A program made the translations under genes and the position numbers. A stretch of DNA of 22,751 nt from a virus. This document shows, one piece after another, positions 1,157 through 19,814 of this stretch (position 1 is the stretch's first letter; every line of letters starts with the position of its first letter). A model generated the notes under the pieces. That model was not told the origin of the DNA and did no database searches. It saw only the letters and a program-made list of their open reading frames with translations. The stretch covers positions 1 to 22,751 of IMG/VR virus record IMGVR_UViG_3300038461_000184; one strand, 5' to 3'.

Positions 1157-1329
1157 TTATCAGCGTAGGGAAGACGCACGTTGACCGGCGGCCGTGGCTT
1201 CCGCCGTCGCAGTTTAGAGAGAATCGAGCAGGCTTCACTAAAGGTCTTGGCCTGTCCGGTGCGGACGAGCCACTCCGCCTTGGCATTGAGGCCAGCGGTG
1301 GGCCACCAGGCGGGGAGATAATAGCTCAC
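1153..1329 (-). CDS. Small hypothetical phage protein, 58 aa
   Basis: The chosen start is GTG at 1329, which forms a GTGA overlap with the TGA of the upstream membrane-protein gene. The longer frame from an ATG at 1389 would bury that gene. The protein reads SYYLPAWWPTAGLNAKAEWL at its N-terminus, then a helix (GQAKTFSEACSILSKLRRRK) and a basic C-terminus. The middle, an A-x-W-L-V-R-T-G-Q-A-K-T-F-S-E-A-C pattern, looks like a short helical domain. No function can be assigned. Its TGA overlaps the TTG of the next gene, so three genes here are chained by 4-bp overlaps. Confidence 0.65.
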   Translation of the reverse strand: MSYYLPAWWPTAGLNAKAEWLVRTGQAKTFSEACSILSKLRRRKPRPPVNVRLPYADN

Positions 1330-1493
1330 GGCCAGATGAGCCACGCGGCCCACACGAGCAGGGCGCCGATACAGAAGCCGAACGCGCATTCGGCAGCCAC
1401 GAGCCAGCGATGCGACCGGCGTTGAGCCTTCTCTTCGCGGACCAGGGCCGCGGCCTGCCAGCTAAAAGGGTCTGTCGGGTCGAGGCGGTTCAT
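1326..1493 (-). CDS. Small single-pass membrane protein, 55 aa
   Basis: ATG at 1493 lies 6 bp after the stop of the preceding gene, and the TGA at 1326 overlaps the next gene's GTG. Residues 1-32 are soluble and charged (MNRLDPTDPFSWQAAALVRE, then KAQRRSHR). Residues about 33-54 form one hydrophobic helix (AECAFGFCIGALLVWAAWLI) that ends the protein at WP. The Lys/Arg cluster just before the helix suggests the N-terminus stays in the cytoplasm. Comparable tiny membrane proteins are common in phage early regions. Function unknown. Confidence 0.65.
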   Translation of the reverse strand: MNRLDPTDPFSWQAAALVREEKAQRRSHRWLVAAECAFGFCIGALLVWAAWLIWP

Positions 1494-1499
1494 GGAAGT

Positions 1500-1835
1500 T
1501 TATAATATGATCGCGCTACCGCACGAGGATGGCTCGACGTCATGCAGGATCACTTTGTAGCCGAAGGGGAATTTGTCACCAGCTATCGGGATCTCTCCAT
1601 GCCAGCAACCATCTTTTTCGCTGATCCACTTTCCCCCGAAAGCCTGGGCAATCTTCATTGCTGATTCTTTTGTAGCCTCGCTCGGCTTCGGGCCAAATAG
1701 CTGCACTAATTTAGGATTGATGGCTGAGCCCTCGCAAGGGCACCAATTGTTAAACTCAGGTTCCTTGTCGGCGAGATCCCGCAAGGCCTGCAGCCTGCTG
1801 ATCGTTTCGTTAATGTTATTTTGGAGTGTTGGCAT
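1500..1835 (-). CDS. Hypothetical phage protein, 111 aa
   Basis: Unrecognised soluble protein. The N-terminus (MPTLQNNINETISRLQALRD) is predicted helical, possibly a short coiled coil. The remainder is mixed alpha/beta with three cysteines (W-C-P-C-E-G near residue 33 and S-C-G near the end) and the segment FGGKWISEKDGCWHGEIPI. Start ATG at 1835 overlaps the end of the upstream gene by 20 bp and has no clear Shine-Dalgarno. The DNA looks less GC-rich than the genes on either side, which may mark recent acquisition. Confidence 0.65.
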   Translation of the reverse strand: MPTLQNNINETISRLQALRDLADKEPEFNNWCPCEGSAINPKLVQLFGPKPSEATKESAMKIAQAFGGKWISEKDGCWHGEIPIAGDKFPFGYKVILHDVEPSSCGSAIIL

Positions 1836-2001
1836 TGGTCAATGGGGTTGAATTGCGTTTCTGTTCCCGGCGGATCCTGCGCGCCTTCTTCCAGCGTTTC
1901 TTCGCAAGACCAGCGTAGAACTTGTGATTCCCGCGGACCTTGGCGAGGCCCGTGCCGCGGCGCCCCATTTCGGAGGCGGTGATGGATGGATTGGTTGTCA
2001 T
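1816..2001 (-). CDS. Small basic hypothetical protein, 61 aa
   Basis: Start ATG at 2001 forms an ATGA overlap with the stop of the preceding gene. The frame is also open further upstream, but that stretch is the antisense frame of the previous coding gene. The protein is very basic: GNHKFYAGLAKKRWKKARRI followed by RREQKR, with a G-R-R-G-T-G-L-A-K-V motif before it. The charge pattern suggests nucleic-acid contact, but no family is recognised. Confidence 0.6.
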   Translation of the reverse strand: MTTNPSITASEMGRRGTGLAKVRGNHKFYAGLAKKRWKKARRIRREQKRNSTPLTNANTPK

Positions 2002-2183
2002 AGTGATTTTGGGGGCCAGCGGATTTCTCCTGCTGGCAGATCGATGATTGAGCAATGTAGCCAATAGGTGCGCACGCACTCGCACTCTTTGCGGATGACC
2101 AGCGTGGCATTTGTGTGCTCCGTCCAAGCCGGCGCCACGAGGCGCGCCATCTCGTCAACGTGATCTCGTTCCCCATCGGTCAT
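1998..2183 (-). CDS. Small hypothetical protein, 61 aa
   Basis: ATG at 2183 lies 3 bp after the upstream gene's stop, and its TGA overlaps the next ATG. The sequence has an acidic start (MTDGERDHVDEMARLVAP), then VIRKECECVRTYWLHCSII with three cysteines in a C-x-C-x7-C arrangement. It might bind a metal or be structural; this is a guess. No family recognised. Confidence 0.6.
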   Translation of the reverse strand: MTDGERDHVDEMARLVAPAWTEHTNATLVIRKECECVRTYWLHCSIIDLPAGEIRWPPKSL

Positions 2184-2186
2184 AGG

Positions 2187-2444
2187 TTAAGTGCTCTGGT
2201 TGTGGCATTCGTCCTGCCGGAGGATGGCGCGCCGCATGATCGCGGCACACTCAAGACAAAGGCCGTGCGTCACATCGAAGCCGGCGGCCGTGGCCGCAGC
2301 AGTCTTGGCGTCCTTGTCGGCGCACCAAGCGCACACGACGACGCAGACCCGAGGCAGCGGCGCGCACCGTTCGCGCTCGTTGCGCCGCTCCTCGTCCCGG
2401 GCGTTCTGCGCATCCTGGCGGAGATAGTCTTCGGTGAAGGTCAT
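2187..2444 (-). CDS. Zinc-ribbon-like small protein
   Basis: 85 residues from ATG at 2444, which overlaps the preceding stop as ATGA. Residues 1-30 are a charged helix rich in Arg and Glu. Residues 38-66 hold two CxxC knuckles, C38AWC41 and C63LEC66. The second sits in a V-T-H-G-L-C-L-E-C context that recalls the S-H-G-I-C-x-x-C zinc-binding segment found in many bacterial proteins. The protein most likely binds one zinc ion. A role in DNA, RNA or protein contact is inference. A longer frame reaching 2588 overlaps the upstream gene and is not preferred. Confidence 0.65.
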   Translation of the reverse strand: MTFTEDYLRQDAQNARDEERRNERERCAPLPRVCVVVCAWCADKDAKTAAATAAGFDVTHGLCLECAAIMRRAILRQDECHNQST

Positions 2445-2977
2445 ATTGTTTCGAAGGAGCCAAGCCGTCGCGCCATGTGGCGCTCGGCTCCGCCGGCGGA
2501 CTTGAGTGCGCGCTGAATTGCTGCCGTGAGTTTGGGACAGCCTGCAAATTGGGCGCGGCTTTTTGCCGTGTGCAAATGCAGTAGGCAAAGATCAAGACTC
2601 TCGGCTTGCTTGATCGTGGCGAGGCGAAGTTTTATTGGGAAACCTCCTTCTATGCCGAATTTCCGACAGGCAACCCCCTCATAATTGAGGGCTGCTTGGG
2701 CCCTCAGAAAGCTCTTGGCATGCGCATGGCGGGCGGCAACGTCGGCGCGGATGTGATCCTGCACGAATTGCCGGAGGACCCCAACGAGCTCGGCGTGCGA
2801 ATTGACCGCGTGTAAGATCTCGGCGCGCTTCCGCCGGCGTTCCTCATACTCCTGCCGCTCTTTGCGCTGGAACTCCAACGCTTCCTTGTCGATCTGCGCG
2901 GCCTGGTCGAGATCGGCAAAGTCCTTCGCCCTTGCCGAGTAGCCGCCAGCAACGGGCTTGATTAGTGGCTGCTGCAT
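2441..2977 (-). CDS. Hypothetical helical protein, 178 aa
   Basis: Start ATG at 2977 (MQQPLIKPVAGGYSARAKDF), overlapping the upstream gene by 16 bp. Residues about 20-60 are a long charged helix (KEALEFQRKERQEYEERRRK), probably a coiled coil. The C-terminal half is mixed and basic, and contains ALNYEGVACRKFGIEGGFPI. No enzyme motif is visible. The TGA overlaps the start of the zinc-ribbon gene. Function unknown. Confidence 0.6.
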   Translation of the reverse strand: MQQPLIKPVAGGYSARAKDFADLDQAAQIDKEALEFQRKERQEYEERRRKRAEILHAVNSHAELVGVLRQFVQDHIRADVAARHAHAKSFLRAQAALNYEGVACRKFGIEGGFPIKLRLATIKQAESLDLCLLHLHTAKSRAQFAGCPKLTAAIQRALKSAGGAERHMARRLGSFETI

Positions 2978-3180
2978 TTGGTGGTGGGGACGGCTGCCTT
3001 GTAGTCGCGACGAACGTTGAATGTCACTTCGCACATTCGCGGGTCGTCAGTGGGAAGCGCACACGAGAGCTTCTCTTTGAGAAATCGCTCAATGTCGCAT
3101 TTGGTGATGTTGTGCTCGTTGCCGGCTGGCAGCTTCGCCGAGACGGTGAACGTGAGGAATACTCTGTTGTTTGCGCCCAT
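2962..3180 (-). CDS. Small hypothetical phage protein, 72 aa
   Basis: ATG at 3180 is preceded by AAGGAAC at a suitable distance, one of the few good Shine-Dalgarno sequences on this strand, which decides the start. The sequence MGANNRVFLTFTVSAKLPAG begins a strand-rich N-terminus. It continues with a K-C-D-I-E-R-F-L-K-E-K-L helix and a second strand pair (CEVTFNVRRDYKA). This strand-helix-strand layout suggests a compact alpha/beta fold. It follows the terminator hairpin at 3220-3245, so it may have its own promoter in the 70-bp gap. No function known. Confidence 0.65.
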   Translation of the reverse strand: MGANNRVFLTFTVSAKLPAGNEHNITKCDIERFLKEKLSCALPTDDPRMCEVTFNVRRDYKAAVPTTKCSSH

Positions 3181-3254: not shown

Positions 3255-3935
3255 TCAACTCAAGGTTTTCCAATTGCGGCGATGTATGATGGCCAGAATT
3301 GAGTTGGGACTAACGGCGAATCTGCGACCAAGTTTAGGACTCGACCATCTGCCGGTTTGATAGAGTTGCCGGATCTGTCGCACTTGATCCTCGGTCAATT
3401 TGGGATTCCGCGGAGGCATTCGCCGTTTCGAAGCAGCGGAGATTTTCGCGAGTGCTTCCGGCGTGTGCCGATACCCTAACCCGTAATGGTGGCCCAAATG
3501 AGCCGCGGCAATCTTCCTGCGATGCTCCTCGGACAATGGCTTTCGTTTTTTACCACGTTGGGCTGCCGATATTTTCTCGATGGTCGCAGCGGAGTGGTGG
3601 TGGTTTACCTTCCCGCCGCTGTCGAGGTTGTAACCTTTCTCGCGCTGATCGCTGGAATGATAGCTGATCCATTCCTGCTCTCGAATGTCGAGCATCCCTT
3701 CTTGGATGCATTCTAAGATCCTAAATTCGAAACTCTCTCTTCCGTCGCGATTCCATGCGGCTTGCAGATGTGGATTGGGGTGGATGCCACGCCGCAGTTG
3801 CCAGAAATGCAGGTAACGCCGTCTTTCAAGATTGATGGTCTGTCCAATGTAGATTTTGCGATCGATCGCGTTCTGGATCGCATAGATGCCAGCGCCGCGA
3901 GTCACGCGATAGACGGACTTTTCTAGGGAGGTCAT
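3255..3935 (-). CDS. GIY-YIG homing endonuclease with NUMOD3 repeats
   Basis: 226 residues from ATG at 3935, which overlaps the preceding stop as ATGA. The GIY-YIG nuclease domain spans about 14-100: GIY at 16-18, YIG at 29-31, the catalytic-type Arg in LERRR (36-40), and Glu in REQEWI (85-90). Residues 115-170 hold NUMOD3-type DNA-binding repeats (ATIEKISAAQRGKKRKPLSE, then HRRKIAAAHLG, then TPEALAKISAA). A C-terminal helix-turn-helix follows (LTEDQVRQIRQLYQTGRW ... NSILAIIHRRNWK). This is the SegA-like free-standing layout. It cuts DNA site-specifically to spread its own gene. Its position inside a chain of tiny coupled genes fits insertion into an operon. Confidence 0.88.
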   Translation of the reverse strand: MTSLEKSVYRVTRGAGIYAIQNAIDRKIYIGQTINLERRRYLHFWQLRRGIHPNPHLQAAWNRDGRESFEFRILECIQEGMLDIREQEWISYHSSDQREKGYNLDSGGKVNHHHSAATIEKISAAQRGKKRKPLSEEHRRKIAAAHLGHHYGLGYRHTPEALAKISAASKRRMPPRNPKLTEDQVRQIRQLYQTGRWSSPKLGRRFAVSPNSILAIIHRRNWKTLS

Positions 3936-4114
3936 GGCGCAAGCGTGATGGTCGTCCAATCCCAGCAGCAGAATCCGTCCTGCCCGAGGTCTTGCTTGAT
4001 CTGCGCGATGTCCTCATCGCAGAGCCCGTCCTTGTTCGTGAGGAGGAAATCCGCCCAAGTGCAGGGTTCCTGCCCGTCGACGGAGACCAGCGTTTCGTCG
4101 GTAATCGTCTTCAT
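3932..4114 (-). CDS. Small hypothetical phage protein, 60 aa
   Basis: MKTITDETLVSVDGQEPCTW begins the protein, followed by ADFLLTNKDGLCDEDIAQIK and a short C-terminus (GFCCWDWTTITLAP). It is acidic and looks like one helix followed by a strand. It starts 3 bp after the stop of the upstream gene, and its TGA overlaps the GIY-YIG start. Not recognised. Confidence 0.65.
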   Translation of the reverse strand: MKTITDETLVSVDGQEPCTWADFLLTNKDGLCDEDIAQIKQDLGQDGFCCWDWTTITLAP

Positions 4115-5879: not shown

Positions 5880-6263
5880 TTTTCGGTCGATCCTCAGCAA
5901 CTTGCGAAAGCTGGCGCGTTCCGGATTGGCGAGTGTCGTGCAAAGCGTTGGAGTAGACGATGCTACAGCATTTAACGCACAAGAACCATTACGAGACCTA
6001 AACAAATCGGGTGCGTACCAATCCGCCGTTTGGCATCGGCCTGGTGGCGTTGCGTCGATCCGGACGCGGCCGACCGCTCCTGGCGCAGATCCGCCGGCCC
6101 GATGCACCCCGACCCTCCCCCTATGCCCCCGTTTAACGCGGCTACGTGCTGTCCAAAAAGGGTGTCATGGGGAAAGCATTCCTTGGCACGGAGCCCCCGG
6201 GGTGTTACCGTGGCATGGTAGAATAGTATTGACATAATTGCGCGACAGTACGAGGGTGTGGGG
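5880..6263. other. 384-bp intergenic region with one degenerate operator-like site
   Basis: No convincing gene is seen here; short frames exist, for example a 41-codon GTG frame from 6012, but lack support. TTACCG-TGGCA-TGGTAG at 6205-6221 matches the phage operator core with two mismatches in the right half. TTGACA occurs at 6229-6234, but no matching -10 box follows at the right distance. No tRNA-like cloverleaf was recognised. Confidence 0.4.
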
Positions 6264-6920
6264 ATGGACGAAACACCAAACGAGAACTGGAAAGCGATAA
6301 CCGGGTACGATTGGTACGAGGTTTCAGACTACGGGAGGGTGAGGTCGGTGGCGTATGGGGATTGGAGGCTGAGGGCGCTGGCGGTGAACCGGATTGGGTA
6401 CGTGAAGGTGGCGCTGAGGGTGGAGGGGGCGGCGGGGCGGGCGGAGACGAAGAGTGTGCACCGGCTGGTGGCGCTGGCATTTTTGGAGAATCCGCTGGGT
6501 TTGCCGGAGGTCGATCACTTGGACGGGGACAAGGAGAACAACTGGGTTGGAAATTTGGAGTGGGTGACGAAGAAGGAGAACACGCGGCGGGCGGTGGCGC
6601 GGCTTGGGGTGTGGCTTAGGGCGGCGTGGGCGCGGGTGAAGAAGCCGGTCTGGATGGTGGATCCGGTGGGGAAGACGGTGACGCGGTTTGGGTCGACGGC
6701 GGAGGCGATTGCGCTGTTGAGCTCGATGCAGGAGACGGCTGGGGGTTTGGCGTTGGGGCCCGGGGCGGCGGCGAACATCTGCCATGCGAAGGATCGGGCG
6801 AAGATGGCGTACGGGTATTTGTGGTGGTCGAGGCCGGTGAAGGACGTTGAGGGGTATTTGGGGAAGTTGCGGCCGTCGAAGCGGAGCCCCTTGGGGGGGA
6901 TTTTGCTGGCAGGGAGGTAG
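6264..6920 (+). CDS. HNH homing endonuclease (NUMOD4-HNH-IENR1 layout)
   Basis: 218 residues from ATG at 6264. Residues 9-28 are a NUMOD4 motif (WKAITGYDWYEVSDYGRVRS). Residues 63-105 are the HNH nuclease: V-H-R-L-V-A-L-A-F at 65-73, VDHLDGDKENN at 83-93 with metal-binding D84-H85, and NLEWVTKKEN at 97-106. Residues about 125-150 resemble the IENR1 DNA-binding motif (KKPVWMVDPVGKTVTRFGST). This is the usual layout of phage-borne free-standing or intron-associated HNH enzymes. It is expected to cleave a related allele lacking the gene. No intron borders are evident. Its codons are exceptionally G-rich at third positions compared with the 12-16 kb genes, suggesting separate ancestry. Confidence 0.88.
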   Translation: MDETPNENWKAITGYDWYEVSDYGRVRSVAYGDWRLRALAVNRIGYVKVALRVEGAAGRAETKSVHRLVALAFLENPLGLPEVDHLDGDKENNWVGNLEWVTKKENTRRAVARLGVWLRAAWARVKKPVWMVDPVGKTVTRFGSTAEAIALLSSMQETAGGLALGPGAAANICHAKDRAKMAYGYLWWSRPVKDVEGYLGKLRPSKRSPLGGILLAGR

Positions 6921-8651: not shown

Positions 8652-8895
8652 CTGGTAGAAAGCGGGCGTAGGAGTCGGTTTGCCAGCGGCGTTGAATCTC
8701 CTCGAGGAGCCACTTAGCGGCGTCGAGGTTGATGGAGGCATCGTAGTTTTCGCGCTCGGCCCGGTCGGCGAAGTGGCAATCGGGGGTCCTCACGCGAAAA
8801 GAGGCCACGATATGATTGTTCTCATCGACGATGAAAACCTCGCCGGGGCTGGATCTCGTGACGGAACTGCGGAGCTCGAGCTTGGGGGTTTTCAT
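8623..8895 (-). CDS. Hypothetical phage protein, 90 aa
   Basis: ATG at 8895 overlaps the TAA of the Gp37/Gp68-like gene as TAATG. The N-terminal half is beta (GEVFIVDENNHIVASFRV); the C-terminal half is helical (YDASINLDAAKWLLEEIQRR). The strand-D-E-N-N-H-I-strand start is common in small phage proteins of unknown role. Coupling suggests co-production with the Gp37/Gp68-like protein. Confidence 0.65.
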   Translation of the reverse strand: MKTPKLELRSSVTRSSPGEVFIVDENNHIVASFRVRTPDCHFADRAERENYDASINLDAAKWLLEEIQRRWQTDSYARFLPDDADHLPGG

Positions 8896-10196
8896 TAGGA
8901 GGGCATCTGTTTGAGGTTCCAGAGGGTCTCGGGGATGATACCGCGCTGGCCTGGGCGAAGGGAACTGTCTTGCTTGACGAAGACGGGAATGCCGGCGCGC
9001 TGCACTTGGACACACAGTTTCTCGAGGTTGCCGATATGGAGCGGTCGGTAGCCAGGGCCGGACTCGCCGCCGACGATCAATAGACCGATGCCCACCGTTG
9101 CCGGAGTGCTATCTTGCTGATGCACCGATCTGACACCCCGAACGCCATTGCCAACGCTTTCAGGCTCTCCCCCGCTGATCTTCTTCGGCGAATCTCCCTC
9201 ACAGCCCCTTCCCTTAGTTTCGCCATATCGTTCTTCTCGCCATTCTGATCTTTGGGAGATACTCCGAGAACTGTTCTCGCATGGAGGATCTGTTGTTGAT
9301 ACGTGGCCAATTCCAGATTTAAGGGACGGTTGTCCCCCTTTTGGCCGTTCTTGTGGTTGATCGTAAGGCCCAGTGGAATGGGCCCGTGATGGATCCGGAA
9401 GACGATCCGATGAGAGCACGCGTAACCCCGGACGCGATTTTCCATGAATCTTGTCTGATAATAACCTCCGCCCGTATTCCTCTCCGCTCGCCGTCCGTTG
9501 GGTCGCCATATCGTCCCGTCTGATTTCACGATCAGCTTCCCTCGCTCTACTGCCCTCATCACGATGTCCTCCATCTCGCGATTCTGTTTCATTGGGACGA
9601 TTGGATAGTATCCACTTTGATAAGTCAATCGCGCCGAGCATCGGCTCGATCGAGAGGAAGCGGACCCTGGCCGGCACCTGCAGGAGGAAGCGGATTCGAC
9701 GATCGGCGGTAGATTGACTGGTGAGAGAGGTTCCCGCCCAGAGGTTCGCCGGCCAGGGGATATTCCGGATTCCAAGCCAGCGGGAGAACTCAACCATCCG
9801 AGCGGGCTTCTTGGTAAGCCAAAGCCAGATGTGCCGCCGGCCGGGTGGACTCGTGACGTTGGAGATGATCTCCTCACTCAGAAATTCGTAGGGGACCTCT
9901 ATTGAGAGCGCGTCGGACAGGTCGGAGATGAAGATGTGCCGCGGGCGGCCGGAGAGCCACGGCTTGTCGTCGCGAACGATGTTGCGCAGGTCCGACCAAG
10001 CGGCAGCCTTCGCCATGCGCCCCCGAATCGCCCGGACGTCGAGGAACTTCGGCGCATAGAGTTTCGGGAGCGATTTCGCGAGGCGGGTCTCGTGGAGGAT
10101 CCGGGCGTAGCAGGTTTTGAGGATCTCGCAGCCGTCGCAGCCGGTCGTCGGGTTGACGGTGGAGTCGCACCAGCCGATGTTGGTATGGATACTCAT
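8895..10196 (-). CDS. Phage Gp37/Gp68-like protein (PF07505/DUF5131) with an inserted HNH gene
   Basis: 433 residues from ATG at 10196, which overlaps the preceding stop as ATGA. Residues 1-196 match the family N-terminus: GWCDSTVNPTTGCDGC (8-23), CYARILHETR, RHIFISDLSDALS, LWLTKKPARM, and the RFLSIEPMLGAIDL region near 182-195. Residues about 369-433 are the C-terminus: IVGGESGPGYRPLH and GIPVFVKQDSS. Family members are usually about 240-270 residues with these motifs nearly adjacent. Here about 172 residues of polar, low-complexity sequence separate them. That stretch is the alternative reading of an HNH gene (9077-9592) and contains no stop. The family carries a conserved cysteine cluster; its biochemical role in phages is unknown. 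Confidence 0.8.
   Translation of the reverse strand: MSIHTNIGWCDSTVNPTTGCDGCEILKTCYARILHETRLAKSLPKLYAPKFLDVRAIRGRMAKAAAWSDLRNIVRDDKPWLSGRPRHIFISDLSDALSIEVPYEFLSEEIISNVTSPPGRRHIWLWLTKKPARMVEFSRWLGIRNIPWPANLWAGTSLTSQSTADRRIRFLLQVPARVRFLSIEPMLGAIDLSKWILSNRPNETESRDGGHRDEGSRAREADREIRRDDMATQRTASGEEYGRRLLSDKIHGKSRPGLRVLSSDRLPDPSRAHSTGPYDQPQERPKGGQPSLKSGIGHVSTTDPPCENSSRSISQRSEWREERYGETKGRGCEGDSPKKISGGEPESVGNGVRGVRSVHQQDSTPATVGIGLLIVGGESGPGYRPLHIGNLEKLCVQVQRAGIPVFVKQDSSLRPGQRGIIPETLWNLKQMPS
9077..9592 (-). CDS. HNH endonuclease inside the Gp37/Gp68-like gene, other frame
   Basis: 171 residues from ATG at 9592 (MKQNREMEDIVMRAVERGKL). The nuclease core lies at 55-100: RGYACSHRIVFRIHHG with H61, then LGLTINHKNGQKGDNRPLNL with H80, N88 and N92, the form found in many phage HNH enzymes. 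Residues 122-170 are a helix-turn-helix tail (LREGAVREIRRRRSAG ... FGVSDRCISKI, ending RQRWASVY). The stop at 9077 falls just inside the downstream part of the host gene. The insert, about 515 bp, is almost exactly the length of this gene, leaving no room for a typical group I intron core. The frame is open further upstream, but that is host-gene shadow. Confidence 0.82.
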   Translation of the reverse strand: MKQNREMEDIVMRAVERGKLIVKSDGTIWRPNGRRAERNTGGGYYQTRFMENRVRGYACSHRIVFRIHHGPIPLGLTINHKNGQKGDNRPLNLELATYQQQILHARTVLGVSPKDQNGEKNDMAKLREGAVREIRRRRSAGESLKALAMAFGVSDRCISKIALRQRWASVY

Positions 10197-15517: not shown

Positions 15518-16218
15518 CCCCACGTCTCTTCATCGCCATCCCCTGCTTCAACCGCTTCGAGATCGCCCAGCAATGCCTTCCGACGATCAAAGTGAATCGG
15601 TGGGACTGCGTCGGCATTTTCAACGACGGATCGACGGAGTACAGAGGGAGCCGGCTGAGGAAATGGTGTGATTGGCTCTTCGACCGCAAGGAGAGGATGG
15701 GGATAGAATGGCAGCGCCGGCGGCACTTCAGAATCTTCTGGCGCTGCTACGAAAAGGCAGGATTCACCCACTTCTACCTCACGGATGCAGATGCGCTGCA
15801 TGATCCATCCTGGCGCTCCGAGGCGCTCCATCTGCAGGACGAATACGGCGGCGCGCCGGTCTGCCTCTACAACACCGCCGCGCACGTCCGGCTCAGTGGG
15901 AACACCATCGAAGACAACCCTGGGCAATATGTCATTTGGCGCCGCTACGCACCCGGAATCAGTTACCTCCTGACCGTCGAGCACGTTCGGATTGTGATGC
16001 GGCACATCGATCAGATGACCAACTGGGACTGGCAGGTCTGCGATTGGCTCGGCAACCGCATGGCGATCTCGAGGCGGAGTTTCGTGGATCACATTGGCCG
16101 CGGCGGCATCCACCACCCAGAGAACGAGGGGTTCAATGGCGGGGACGTCGCGCTCAACCCCACAAGTTTTTTGGTAGATAAAAGGGCGGAAGTAATCTCA
16201 ATACTATCCAAGGAATGA
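15508..16218 (+). CDS. Family-2-like glycosyltransferase
   Basis: 236 residues. Nucleotide-binding start FIAIPCFNRFEIAQQCLPTI (8-27), FNDGST at 38-43, and the D-x-D-type motif LTDADALHDPSW at 91-102. H-I-G-R-G-G-I-H-H-P near 195-204 resembles the C-terminal His/Gly segment of related enzymes. The last 15-20 codons become visibly AT-richer, matching the adjoining HNH gene. The original C-terminus may therefore have been replaced when that gene inserted. Confidence 0.8.
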   Translation: MALTPRLFIAIPCFNRFEIAQQCLPTIKVNRWDCVGIFNDGSTEYRGSRLRKWCDWLFDRKERMGIEWQRRRHFRIFWRCYEKAGFTHFYLTDADALHDPSWRSEALHLQDEYGGAPVCLYNTAAHVRLSGNTIEDNPGQYVIWRRYAPGISYLLTVEHVRIVMRHIDQMTNWDWQVCDWLGNRMAISRRSFVDHIGRGGIHHPENEGFNGGDVALNPTSFLVDKRAEVISILSKE

Positions 16219-16955
16219 ATACGGAAGGCTTTCATTGCAGGGAATCTGTGATACTTACTCGTCCACGAGCATTGAAGAATTTCTATGCCAGAGTCGATCG
16301 TAGTGGGGGAGCAGATGCATGCCATAATTGCCGTGGGCACACATTTAATAATGGCCGAATGGCCAGATACGCGAGAGTGCGTACCACGGAAGGGAGCTTC
16401 GGGGCTCATCGGATAGCTTATTTTCTAGCTAATGGAGATATTCCGAAAGGCCTGTGCGTATGCCATTCGTGCGACAATCCCTTATGCTGTAATCCAAGCC
16501 ATCTTTGGCTAGGTACGAATGCAGACAATGCCGCAGACCGAAGTGCAAAAGGACGTGGTGCCTTTGGCGATCACAATGGATCTCGTCGGCATCCCGAGAG
16601 GTATCCCAAGGGTGATTTGAGCGGTCCCCATCTTCATCCTGAATTAATGCCCCGCGGTGATAGGCATGGCTCTCGCACACATCCTGAACGTCTGCCCCGA
16701 GGAGACCGCAATGGTATGCGAAAGCATCCGGAAAGCGTACTTCGTGGAAGCAAATCACCCAATGCGAAACTGACAGAGGGAATGGTCTTCCAAATCAGAT
16801 CCTTTGCGGCGCAAGGTGAAAGTATACGATCGATCACTCGAAGATTCTTGGTGTCCCGGCGGACAATTCAATTCGCGATCCGCGGTCGGAACTGGGCACA
16901 CCTTCCGCTTGTCCAAAAGCGCAAAGAGGTTGTCGCGGCCCTCGAATCGCAGTAG
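16215..16955 (+). CDS. HNH endonuclease with four 15-residue repeats
   Basis: 246 residues, ATGA overlap with the preceding stop. Residues 36-105 are a zinc-supported HNH domain: C36-H-N-C39, GAHRIAYFLANGDIPKGL, then C-V-C-H-S-C-D-N-P-x-C-C-N-P-S-H-L-W-L-G. Residues 118-177 are four tandem 15-residue units with the plan G-D-x-x-G-x-x-x-H-P-E-x-x-P-R, leading into NAKLTEGMVFQIRSF and a helix-turn-helix (VSRRTIQFAIRGRNWAHL). Similar His-Pro linkers occur in phage HNH proteins. The DNA is clearly less GC-rich than the flanking genes, consistent with an invading homing gene placed directly in front of terL. Confidence 0.85.
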   Translation: MNTEGFHCRESVILTRPRALKNFYARVDRSGGADACHNCRGHTFNNGRMARYARVRTTEGSFGAHRIAYFLANGDIPKGLCVCHSCDNPLCCNPSHLWLGTNADNAADRSAKGRGAFGDHNGSRRHPERYPKGDLSGPHLHPELMPRGDRHGSRTHPERLPRGDRNGMRKHPESVLRGSKSPNAKLTEGMVFQIRSFAAQGESIRSITRRFLVSRRTIQFAIRGRNWAHLPLVQKRKEVVAALESQ

Positions 16956-16964
16956 GCCTTGGTC

Positions 16965-19814
16965 ATGGTAGACGGCAGCGTACTCATTTCCTCTGTCGCC
17001 AGTGACGCCGGCGCCTGGTTCGAGAATTACGGTCGGATCTGGCCGAAAGATCGCAACCGCGGGCTGATCTGCCCGAAGCTCAACTACCTGCAGACCGAGA
17101 TTCAGGAGGTCGTGCAGCGAATGGAGGATTTGGACCTTCCGGTCCGCATTGTTGGTCTGAAACCCCGGCAAAAGGGCTCAACCACCTATTTCGCGGCGGT
17201 CGATTACTGCCATCTGAGGCGGGCATCTGCGCACGCCTGCCTCATCGGCGGACAGTATTCCCAGACAACGGAAGTCTGGGAGATGATGAAAACCTACCAG
17301 AAGAACGATACGTTCGACTGGAGGAACACCGGCGAGATCAACGCGAAGGAGGGCCGATGGTCGAACGGCAGCCGGCTCACCCCGGAAACGGCGAATGACA
17401 AACTGGCCGGTATCTCGACTACCTTCCAAATCCTCCATTGCACGGAGCTCGCCCGCTGGGCGAAGTATGGCGTTGCGAACGCCGGCGCGGTCCTCACCAA
17501 CATTCTAAAATGCGTCCCTCTCCTCCCGGGAACGATCGTGATTCTCGAGAGCACCGCCGAAGGCAACTGTTACGATGACAAGACGGAGATTCTTACAGAT
17601 GCGGGTTGGAAGTTTTTCAAAGACCTCAATGGACGAGAGGGCATCTTGACCAAGAATCCGGAGACTTCAGTCGCTTACTATCAGAAGCAATGGAGCCCAG
17701 TCATCAGCAAGTGGAAGGGGGAGATGGTGCATTTCGAGACTCGCACCGTTAATCTAGTGGTAAGCCCTAACCACATGATGTGGATGGCGAGGCAAAAGGG
17801 TAAAATGAAACTCCAAGCGGCTGAGACGGCCCTCGGGGAAAAGACCGATTTCATTTTTGATCGAGCGATGAAATGGGCGGTGCCTGGTTTGGAGGCGATC
17901 ACAATACCGAGCTACACTCACGTTCAGGGTAACGGCATTCGCACGCATCAGCCTATTAGAATCCCGATCGATATTTGGTTGAGATTTCTTGGGCATTGGC
18001 TGGCCGATGGCCACCTGAGTTTCAGGCAACGTGACAAAAAGGTTGTATTGACGCAAACCAAGTTTCCTGAGCTCTTCCGCTCATCAGCGAAAGGAATCGC
18101 TGATTGCCTAGGGTCACCACTGAGGGACATGCCTCATACGAATGGAAGGAGATTTGAAATCTGTAATGCCCAACTTGCTTCTTATCTCACCGCGTTTTGT
18201 CGCCCGAAAAGGATTCCGCGGGAGCTTCTTATGGGATTGTCTTCGGTCCAGTGTAAGCAACTTATTCAATCGATCTACGAAGGAGACGGGGATCAGTACG
18301 ATGCAGAGACGCGGAAAATCGAGAGAGGAACAATTTTCTGCGGGATAGATAAAGAATTTCAGGATGACTTACAGGAATTAGCCTTGAAGGCCGGTTACGC
18401 AACGAGTGCCTTCGGGCCAGATAGAAACCGTCGGGCTACTTTCACGGCATCTACTCGGGCGATGGTCCGGTACGACAATCCTCCATTTGTAACTGAGGAT
18501 TACGATGGGATGATCTATTGTGTCAAACTACCCAAGGATCACCTATTGATGGTGAGGAGAAAAGGGAAAGCGGTTTGGTGCGGGAACACCGGGGAGTTTC
18601 ACGACCGGTTTGTCGCCGCGGTCGACGCGCAGGACTTTCTGAGCGGTCGGGTGCAGCTCATCCCCGGACAGTACGTGCGAGTTTTCGCTCCCTGGTTCGA
18701 GTTCGATGATTCGGCCATCCGGTTGACGCCAGAGCAGAAGCGAGAGATGGAGCGGACGATCGATTCAGACGAGGAATTCTCTGGCGAGCGCGATCTGATT
18801 AACGCCTACGGACACGAGGAAAACGGCGTCATGCGGCTCGGCAATAGCGTGAAGGATTATGACGTCTGGGAGCAGCTCGCTTGGCGCCGCTTTGCCATTC
18901 GGGAAGAGTGCGAACGAGACAAGGACATTTTCGATCGCGACTATCCGCATAGTTGGAAGGAGGCTTTTCTGAAGAGCGGCGACCGTCGCTTTAACTCGAC
19001 CGGACTTTCCGTACTACGAAAAAGGCTGGGCTTGCGCGTTCCGATGCCTGGGATCTTGGAGGAAACGAAGAGCCGCCGTCTGTCCTTCCGCCAAACAGAG
19101 CAGCGCGGGGCGAAGTTCATCATCTTTGAGAAGCCGCTCGCCGGCCGCCGGTACCTCATGCCGGTCGACGTGATGACCGGTGCGACCCAAACTGGCGGCA
19201 CCGACCCAGATTTCCACTCTGCCTTTGTTCTCCGGGCTGGTTACTGGGACACCAATGGCAAGTGGATCCGGCCGGCCACGGCGGCGCGGATCGTCGCCTG
19301 TCAGTGGGATATTGACGTTCTGGAGGATTCCGTCTGGAGACTCGCCCGCTTCTATGGAGGGACCGTCGGATGCAAAATCGCGATCGAGATGAACATGGAC
19401 CGCGGCCTCACGGAGCTCCTGAAGCAGCGCAGCGCGGATATGTATATGCGCGAAATCTTCAACCGGAGGGAGTTCAAGACCACGTCGGCGCTTGGCTTCA
19501 ACACGAACGAGAAAACCCGGGAGATGATCGTCGAGGTCCTTGCCAAGGCGATTCGTGAATGGGACACGCCCGGCGAAGGGATTGACGTTTTCGATGCCCG
19601 AGCCATCGAGCAGATGGAAAACTTTGTTAGAAAGCTCAACGGCCGCAGCGAGGCGGCAGAGGGGTTCCACGATGACGACGTCATCTCGATCGCGCTCGGC
19701 CTGCAGTTGATCGAACAGGCGACGAGTTTTTTCCCCGAGAGGTTTGGAAACAGTTTGCCCCCGGACCTGCGCGGCACGCCGCAGGGCCAGGGGCAACCGT
19801 CCCAGTTCAGCTGA
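16965..19814 (+). CDS. terL: Large terminase subunit (TerL) containing an intein
   Basis: 949 codons from ATG at 16965 (a TTG at 16959 is an alternative start); 609 residues after intein removal, a normal TerL length. It is the packaging motor that translocates and cuts phage DNA. ATPase: Walker A-like GLKPRQKGSTT (64-74), Walker B FQILHCTELARW (154-165) with E161, coupling motif ILESTAEG (193-200). The intein (202-541) interrupts directly after the coupling motif, at AEGN/TGEF. Nuclease: MPVDVMTG with its Asp, CKIAIEMN with its Glu, and FHDDDVISIALGLQL near the C-terminus, matching the RNase H-like metal site. YPHSWKEAFLKSG is the usual inter-domain motif. The gene ends just before the period-5 array. 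Confidence 0.93.
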   Translation: MVDGSVLISSVASDAGAWFENYGRIWPKDRNRGLICPKLNYLQTEIQEVVQRMEDLDLPVRIVGLKPRQKGSTTYFAAVDYCHLRRASAHACLIGGQYSQTTEVWEMMKTYQKNDTFDWRNTGEINAKEGRWSNGSRLTPETANDKLAGISTTFQILHCTELARWAKYGVANAGAVLTNILKCVPLLPGTIVILESTAEGNCYDDKTEILTDAGWKFFKDLNGREGILTKNPETSVAYYQKQWSPVISKWKGEMVHFETRTVNLVVSPNHMMWMARQKGKMKLQAAETALGEKTDFIFDRAMKWAVPGLEAITIPSYTHVQGNGIRTHQPIRIPIDIWLRFLGHWLADGHLSFRQRDKKVVLTQTKFPELFRSSAKGIADCLGSPLRDMPHTNGRRFEICNAQLASYLTAFCRPKRIPRELLMGLSSVQCKQLIQSIYEGDGDQYDAETRKIERGTIFCGIDKEFQDDLQELALKAGYATSAFGPDRNRRATFTASTRAMVRYDNPPFVTEDYDGMIYCVKLPKDHLLMVRRKGKAVWCGNTGEFHDRFVAAVDAQDFLSGRVQLIPGQYVRVFAPWFEFDDSAIRLTPEQKREMERTIDSDEEFSGERDLINAYGHEENGVMRLGNSVKDYDVWEQLAWRRFAIREECERDKDIFDRDYPHSWKEAFLKSGDRRFNSTGLSVLRKRLGLRVPMPGILEETKSRRLSFRQTEQRGAKFIIFEKPLAGRRYLMPVDVMTGATQTGGTDPDFHSAFVLRAGYWDTNGKWIRPATAARIVACQWDIDVLEDSVWRLARFYGGTVGCKIAIEMNMDRGLTELLKQRSADMYMREIFNRREFKTTSALGFNTNEKTREMIVEVLAKAIREWDTPGEGIDVFDARAIEQMENFVRKLNGRSEAAEGFHDDDVISIALGLQLIEQATSFFPERFGNSLPPDLRGTPQGQGQPSQFS
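17568..18587 (+). mobile_element. Intein with LAGLIDADG endonuclease inside TerL
   Basis: 340 residues, starting at Cys (CYDDKTEILTDAGWKFFKDL, block A) and ending at WCGN before an extein Thr. Block B is NLVVSPNHMMWMA (62-74). The LAGLIDADG endonuclease motifs are FLGHWLADGHL (140-150) and LIQSIYEGDGDQ (232-243). The C-terminal splicing block is DYDGMIYCVKLPKDHLLMVR (311-330). The penultimate residue is Gly instead of the common His. The bordering exteins read ILESTAEGN and TGEFHDRF, restoring a conserved TerL motif region. Base composition is lower in GC than the exteins. It should self-splice from the precursor and copy itself into intein-less terL alleles. Confidence 0.92.

Follow-up and report, generated by a model that had tools for sequence, protein, structure and literature searches.

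How can a complete HNH endonuclease gene lie inside another phage gene, in a different frame, while the outer frame runs through the whole insert without a stop codon? The usual view is that a homing endonuclease can reside harmlessly in a coding gene only within an intron or an intein, and inteins and group I introns remove themselves by protein or RNA splicing. The question is raised by a complete IMG/VR virus record 22,751 bases in length, referred to here as the window, and the outer gene in it belongs to the DUF5131 family. The initial annotation had left three options, namely a host protein with a long disordered loop (true overprinting), an unusually compact intron, or an inactivated host gene that is still open by chance. 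The first of these is now supported by 12 of 12 nested elements with an open outer frame in one phase, by a codon test and by an AlphaFold model, and we consider it very probable that a homing-type HNH gene has inserted into a DUF5131 loop and that overprinting here replaces splicing.

An HNH gene within a DUF5131 loop

Both ORFs lie on the minus strand where they had originally been placed (Table 1). The outer protein matches PF07505 DUF5131 (E 2.7e-39, 135.5 bits versus a Pfam gathering score of 28.9) and phrog_2045 aligns over its residues 1-420. The conserved columns of PF07505 are kept, and conserved residues of the outer protein are preserved on both flanks of the insert; C-terminal to GGESG, the protein is shorter than in eight aligned phage relatives. 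Closest to it are genes of Verrucomicrobiota MAGs and the DUF5131 gene of L010, and the presence of the MAG genes (L180-L184) among the nearest relatives hints at the host of the phage. Fold searches of PDB and BFVD with the model of the outer protein returned nothing at E <= 0.001, a DUF5131 profile had no match among PDB sequences at the same threshold (best E 0.21), and a search of viral contigs with 8-residue patterns found no close relative of either the DUF5131 or the HNH protein.

The nested protein matches HNH_3 (PF13392; E 7e-13, 48.4 bits versus a gathering score of 24.8, Pfam) and phrog_59 (E 1.8e-26), and the HNH profile spans its residues 4-170. No match to it was found among plasmid sequences. 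The ATG of the HNH gene begins on the second base of a host codon (offset 1), and its TGA overlaps the host codons that open the conserved IVGGESG motif. A GGAGG sits 5 nt before a GTG (9562) and 8 nt before an ATG (9559), which are HNH codons 11 and 12, and judging from this spacing the HNH protein may start at one of these two codons instead of at 9592. A search for a near-identical uninvaded allele that could fix the insertion site found none, and the ends of the insert are given as approximate because no close uninvaded relative was found.

Table 1. Features of the window and the nested elements found in viral contigs
Feature	Position	Strand	Basis or remark
Outer (host) gene, DUF5131 / Gp37-Gp68 family, 433 aa	8895..10196	-	ATG 10196, stop ending 8895
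Host part 5' of insert: DUF5131 core, GC..C..CYA-type motif and SIEPMLG	9606..10196	-	alignment; pLDDT
Insert, approximate extent	9077..9605	-	host-like residues to about SKWIL on 5' side, again from GIGLLIVGG
Nested HNH endonuclease gene, 171 aa, HNH_3 and C-terminal HTH-like part	9077..9592	-	ORF, profile matches
GGAGG, possible ribosome-binding site for HNH	9568..9572	-	counted on sequence
Host part 3' of insert: conserved segment GGESG...KQ	8895..9076	-	alignment; pLDDT
Further apparent endonuclease or terminase-like gene	3255-3959	-	named by eye
Further apparent endonuclease or terminase-like gene	6258-6920	+	named by eye
Further apparent endonuclease or terminase-like gene	16215-16955	+	named by eye
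Further apparent endonuclease or terminase-like gene	16959-19814	+	named by eye
Nested element: window	9077-9592	-	
Nested element: L185			same contig as L177
Nested element: L178			same element as L176, L192, L193, no differences
Nested element: L179			
Nested element: L186			no differences from L188, L189, L257, L259, L260, L266
Nested element: L187			same contig as L258
Nested element: L190			same contig as L261
Nested element: L264			
Nested element: L265			middle of DUF5131 missing
Nested element: L272			L274 looks identical by translation
Nested elements: L273a and L273b			both in one DUF5131 gene

The insert lies between two conserved host motifs that had been described as normally adjacent and as being about 172 codons apart in the window. 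Their wide separation stood up, with a corrected figure of 181 residues, but adjacency is not the norm in this family. When DUF5131 loci were measured by script, the motif starts lay 23 to 145 residues apart in 73 of 88 loci (14 of the others had no pattern match and one, L021, had a false match), with a loop of variable length between them; by the same measure, the window has 195 residues. The insert thus enlarges a loop that already varies in length, which makes its tolerance plausible. Four other DUF5131 proteins (L043, L052, L064 and L083) carry loops of other kinds, with 94 to 145 residues between motif starts and, in some of them, repeated Cys pairs. An uninterrupted homologue with the same loop sequence and no HNH frame, which the initial annotation had named as a refuting case, did not occur among the loops listed for the 88 loci. 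In an AlphaFold model of the host protein, built with 53 sequences, block means of pLDDT were 72-98 for residues 1-190 and 84-90 over residues 371-410, with most core blocks above 90, and almost all values for residues 236-362 were below 50. The loop encoded by the insert is therefore predicted to be disordered next to a confidently modelled core.

The open outer frame across twelve elements

As the initial annotation had it, the host frame is free of stops across the whole insert. The third frame has 11. When the codons of the HNH gene were permuted synonymously, preserving protein and codon usage, the host frame stayed open in 0.13% of 20,000 draws and, in a second run, in 0.10% of 3000. Across nine of the nested elements the frame remained open in 0.03 to 1.5% of draws for eight and in 0 of 3000 for L178, so that single open cases are expected to be rare but possible. 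Among the other genes of the window, from ORFs of our own selection, none of 2456 overlapping 171-codon windows was open in either alternative sense frame. By eye, from the translations, the phage also appears to encode a GIY-YIG protein, two additional HNH proteins and a terminase-like protein with an apparent in-frame intein; none of these endonuclease genes has an open alternative sense frame. In a wider set of 149 distinct HNH cores, ten have an open alternative frame; seven of the ten are nested in DUF5131, and L213, L219 and L150 are not. At L111 and L164, the alternative frames contain 4 and 7 stops and 12 and 12 stops, respectively.

Searches of viral contigs brought the number of nested HNH elements to 12, in 11 DUF5131 genes on 16 contigs, the window included. 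These searches consisted of pattern scans and a profile scan and were blind to the outer reading frame. A scan for the HNH motif and GGESG at the right spacing, in any frame, returned four viral contigs, all four with the same arrangement, and further elements came from one profile scan and two more pattern scans. In all 12 the outer frame is open and the HNH gene lies in one common phase. The arrangement recurs in diverse DUF5131 genes and at two loops: eight elements lie before GGESG and three (L190, L264 and L273a) in an earlier loop before an NVWLG-type motif, and the site in L265 is not assignable to a loop, as the middle of its DUF5131 is missing. Both loops are occupied in L273, where positions 1262-3046 form one 595-codon DUF5131 frame with two overprinted HNH genes, one per loop.

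In a frame-blind check of the loci with both matches collected by that stage, no HNH gene was found nested between DUF5131 segments with a broken outer frame, and non-nested HNH genes near DUF5131 matches lay in a neighbouring gene or after the DUF5131 stop. The pattern scans also gave HNH genes that are not nested in DUF5131 (L262, L263, L268, L269, L270 and L271). At or directly after the 3' end of DUF5131 we observed HNH genes in L096, L097, L052, L178 (a second HNH gene) and L262, each of which encodes a copy of the DUF5131 tail (GK..AGR.LDG..W...P type) at its own C-terminus, as though the 3' end of the host gene had given way to the element. As to translation signals, a clear ribosome-binding site was seen only in the window, L273a and L273b (in the last an AAGGAGG directly before its GTG), and L179 has only a GAGG far into the frame.

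In the common phase, the outer frame gains a stop wherever T is the last base of an HNH codon and the following codon starts with AA, AG or GA. In the 12 elements, T-ending codons are found at 0 of 391 positions before AA, AG or GA and at 269 of 1188 elsewhere (Fisher 2e-37, a value that treats codons as independent), compared with 211 of 1173 and 892 of 3570 in 36 GC-matched HNH genes that are not nested. Since a count of zero follows from an open frame, the test measures how many chances to break the frame were avoided, and the absence of T-ending codons at these positions is as would be expected if outer-frame stops are avoided. With the open frame in one phase in every nested element and this codon signature, the earlier option that the frame of the window is open by chance is rejected: it is not chance.

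The two overlapping products differ in conservation. In all 66 pairs of elements the HNH proteins show a higher identity than the loop peptides (means 44% versus 23%), and the eight pairs listed differ most often at third positions of HNH codons; by this comparison the HNH frame is the more conserved product of the two. Hydrophilicity of the loop was also considered as a sign of selection and dropped: offset-2 peptides of the 36 GC-matched non-nested HNH genes have a mean hydrophobicity of -1.21 (sd 0.26) and are about as hydrophilic as the nested ones (-1.12 to -1.46), which means that the loop's character comes with the phase and is no evidence of selection.

Possible splicing, loss of the outer gene and movement between host genes

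Phage HNH genes are commonly intron-borne, and the insert might be a self-splicing intron of very small size with a core that overlaps the HNH gene, in which case the openness of the host frame would be incidental. HNH relatives do split nrdB in L093, L094 and L095. No Rfam family reached a meaningful score in the region of the window, and none of the Rfam intron families was found in eight other nested loci; the covariance search for intron cores that had been proposed at the outset was thus carried out without a match, but it carries little weight on its own because it likewise missed the presumed introns of two controls, L094 and L095. More telling is the space available. Almost all of the insert is matched by HNH profiles, and host-like sequence begins no more than tens of bases from either end, so that the HNH frame and conserved host sequence fill the region and leave no room for a ribozyme core. 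An intron would, moreover, give no reason for the host frame to be free of stops in all 12 elements. On these grounds the compact intron of the initial annotation is unlikely, and we give it very little probability. For an intein, we found no Hint or splicing domain in the 433-aa host protein, in which DUF5131 is the sole Pfam match at E up to 10.

Slightly less probable still is that DUF5131 has been inactivated and owes its open frame to chance or to the recency of the insertion. The few permutation draws that leave the frame open in eight of nine elements allow for this in a single case, and damage is visible in two other host genes: most of the core is gone from L265, and in L273 a stop interrupts the DUF5131 frame upstream of the inserts. 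Their loop frames are open all the same, which means that an open frame is no proof of a working host protein, and both genes, which are counted among the 12, speak against all hosts being functional. As a general account, however, inactivation is at odds with an outer frame that is open in one phase in all elements despite HNH divergence to 44% mean identity, and with the conserved host residues kept on either side of the insert. That the loop peptide functions in DUF5131, with the nested HNH gene as a partner or domesticated gene and not a selfish one, is the least probable reading, since the loop is disordered in the AlphaFold model and far less conserved than the HNH protein in every pair, even though the HNH frames of L179 and L273a are broken by one internal stop each while the outer frame through them is open, and L273 holds two nested elements in one gene.

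Being related, the 12 elements do not represent 12 independent events. A quick tree was built from 69 HNH proteins, those of nine elements together with the 60 non-nested proteins that matched best; in it, the nested proteins fall within a weakly supported group of 14 rows (51), alongside five non-nested rows, two of which (L096 and L097) lie directly downstream of a DUF5131 gene. The fewest changes between nested and non-nested state are three for the nine elements, and the starred branches force at least two. When six main-loop hosts were compared with nine uninvaded genes that we picked from the best matches, the closest gene was an uninvaded one in four, was tied in L185 and was another invaded one in L178. 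Among these six, the HNH proteins have a higher identity than the hosts in 10 of 15 pairs. These comparisons and the patchy presence of the element fit a movement between host genes. A candidate homing conversion tract between the near-identical contigs L257 and L260 was dropped, as about 10 kb agree except for the first 200 bases near a contig end.

For an overprinted homing element, we propose the following course of events. A homing-type HNH gene would enter a phage DUF5131 gene at a loop of variable length, in a phase that lets the alternative frame encode a hydrophilic peptide free of stops. Ribosomes on DUF5131 would read through the insert and produce a protein that includes about 175 residues of disordered loop and would presumably retain its activity, and separate initiation within the same mRNA would give the HNH endonuclease. 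The latter would cut uninvaded DUF5131 alleles, and repair would copy the element. According to this proposal, selection on the outer gene keeps stops out of the second frame, and the element can therefore be tolerated with neither RNA nor protein splicing. We regard it as reasonably probable that the elements form a class of phase-locked, splice-free homing elements that have the second frame under host-gene selection, can occupy either or both of two loops and outlive their endonuclease. If so, an element would persist after the loss of its endonuclease as a long disordered loop, and homing without splicing would be a way for proteins to gain disordered insertions. The system also lets one ask how a gene pair evolves in which one protein is conserved and the other only avoids stops, and the codon signature offers a direct way of testing any genome computationally for such elements.

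Relation to known systems

Inteins and group I intron homing elements are likewise selfish endonucleases in a coding gene that survives the insertion; they splice out, whereas the endonuclease nested in DUF5131 lies out of frame and shows no sign of splicing. I-HmuI is encoded in a group I intron. Its HNH domain is related to the nested protein, the family profile of which matches it (PDB 1u3e, E 4.6e-6), but no intron was detected around the DUF5131-nested gene.

No description of an HNH gene nested in DUF5131 turned up in searches of the open-access literature. The closest known case is the ShiLan domain, in which an HNH gene is inserted out of frame in a phage methylase gene, and a second such case is Pacc40 gp60 (PMC11855218); an earlier paper (PMC9957025) deals with the same methylase. 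In both the ShiLan and the DUF5131 case, an HNH gene lies wholly inside another phage gene in a different frame, the outer frame is stop-free, the insert closes with the HNH stop codon, no intron or intein is detected, the outer-frame peptide is poorly structured, and homing is inferred (for ShiLan, from distribution). They differ in the host gene, a DNA methylase in ShiLan and PF07505 DUF5131 here; in the phase, the HNH ORF in the ShiLan gp65 sequence lying on the third base of host codons (gene offset 2) and the DUF5131-nested HNH gene on the second; and in the type of HNH protein, with flanking zinc fingers in ShiLan (PMC11855218) and a C-terminal HTH-like part in the DUF5131-nested proteins. 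The terms Gp37, Gp68 and DUF5131 are absent from the text of PMC11855218, as are the words synonymous and selection, and to the ShiLan work the present analysis adds a set of twelve elements, located at two loops, together with a test of whether stops are avoided. That the ShiLan arrangement is found in a second gene family, with a different phase and a different type of HNH protein, suggests that overprinting is a recurrent alternative to splicing.
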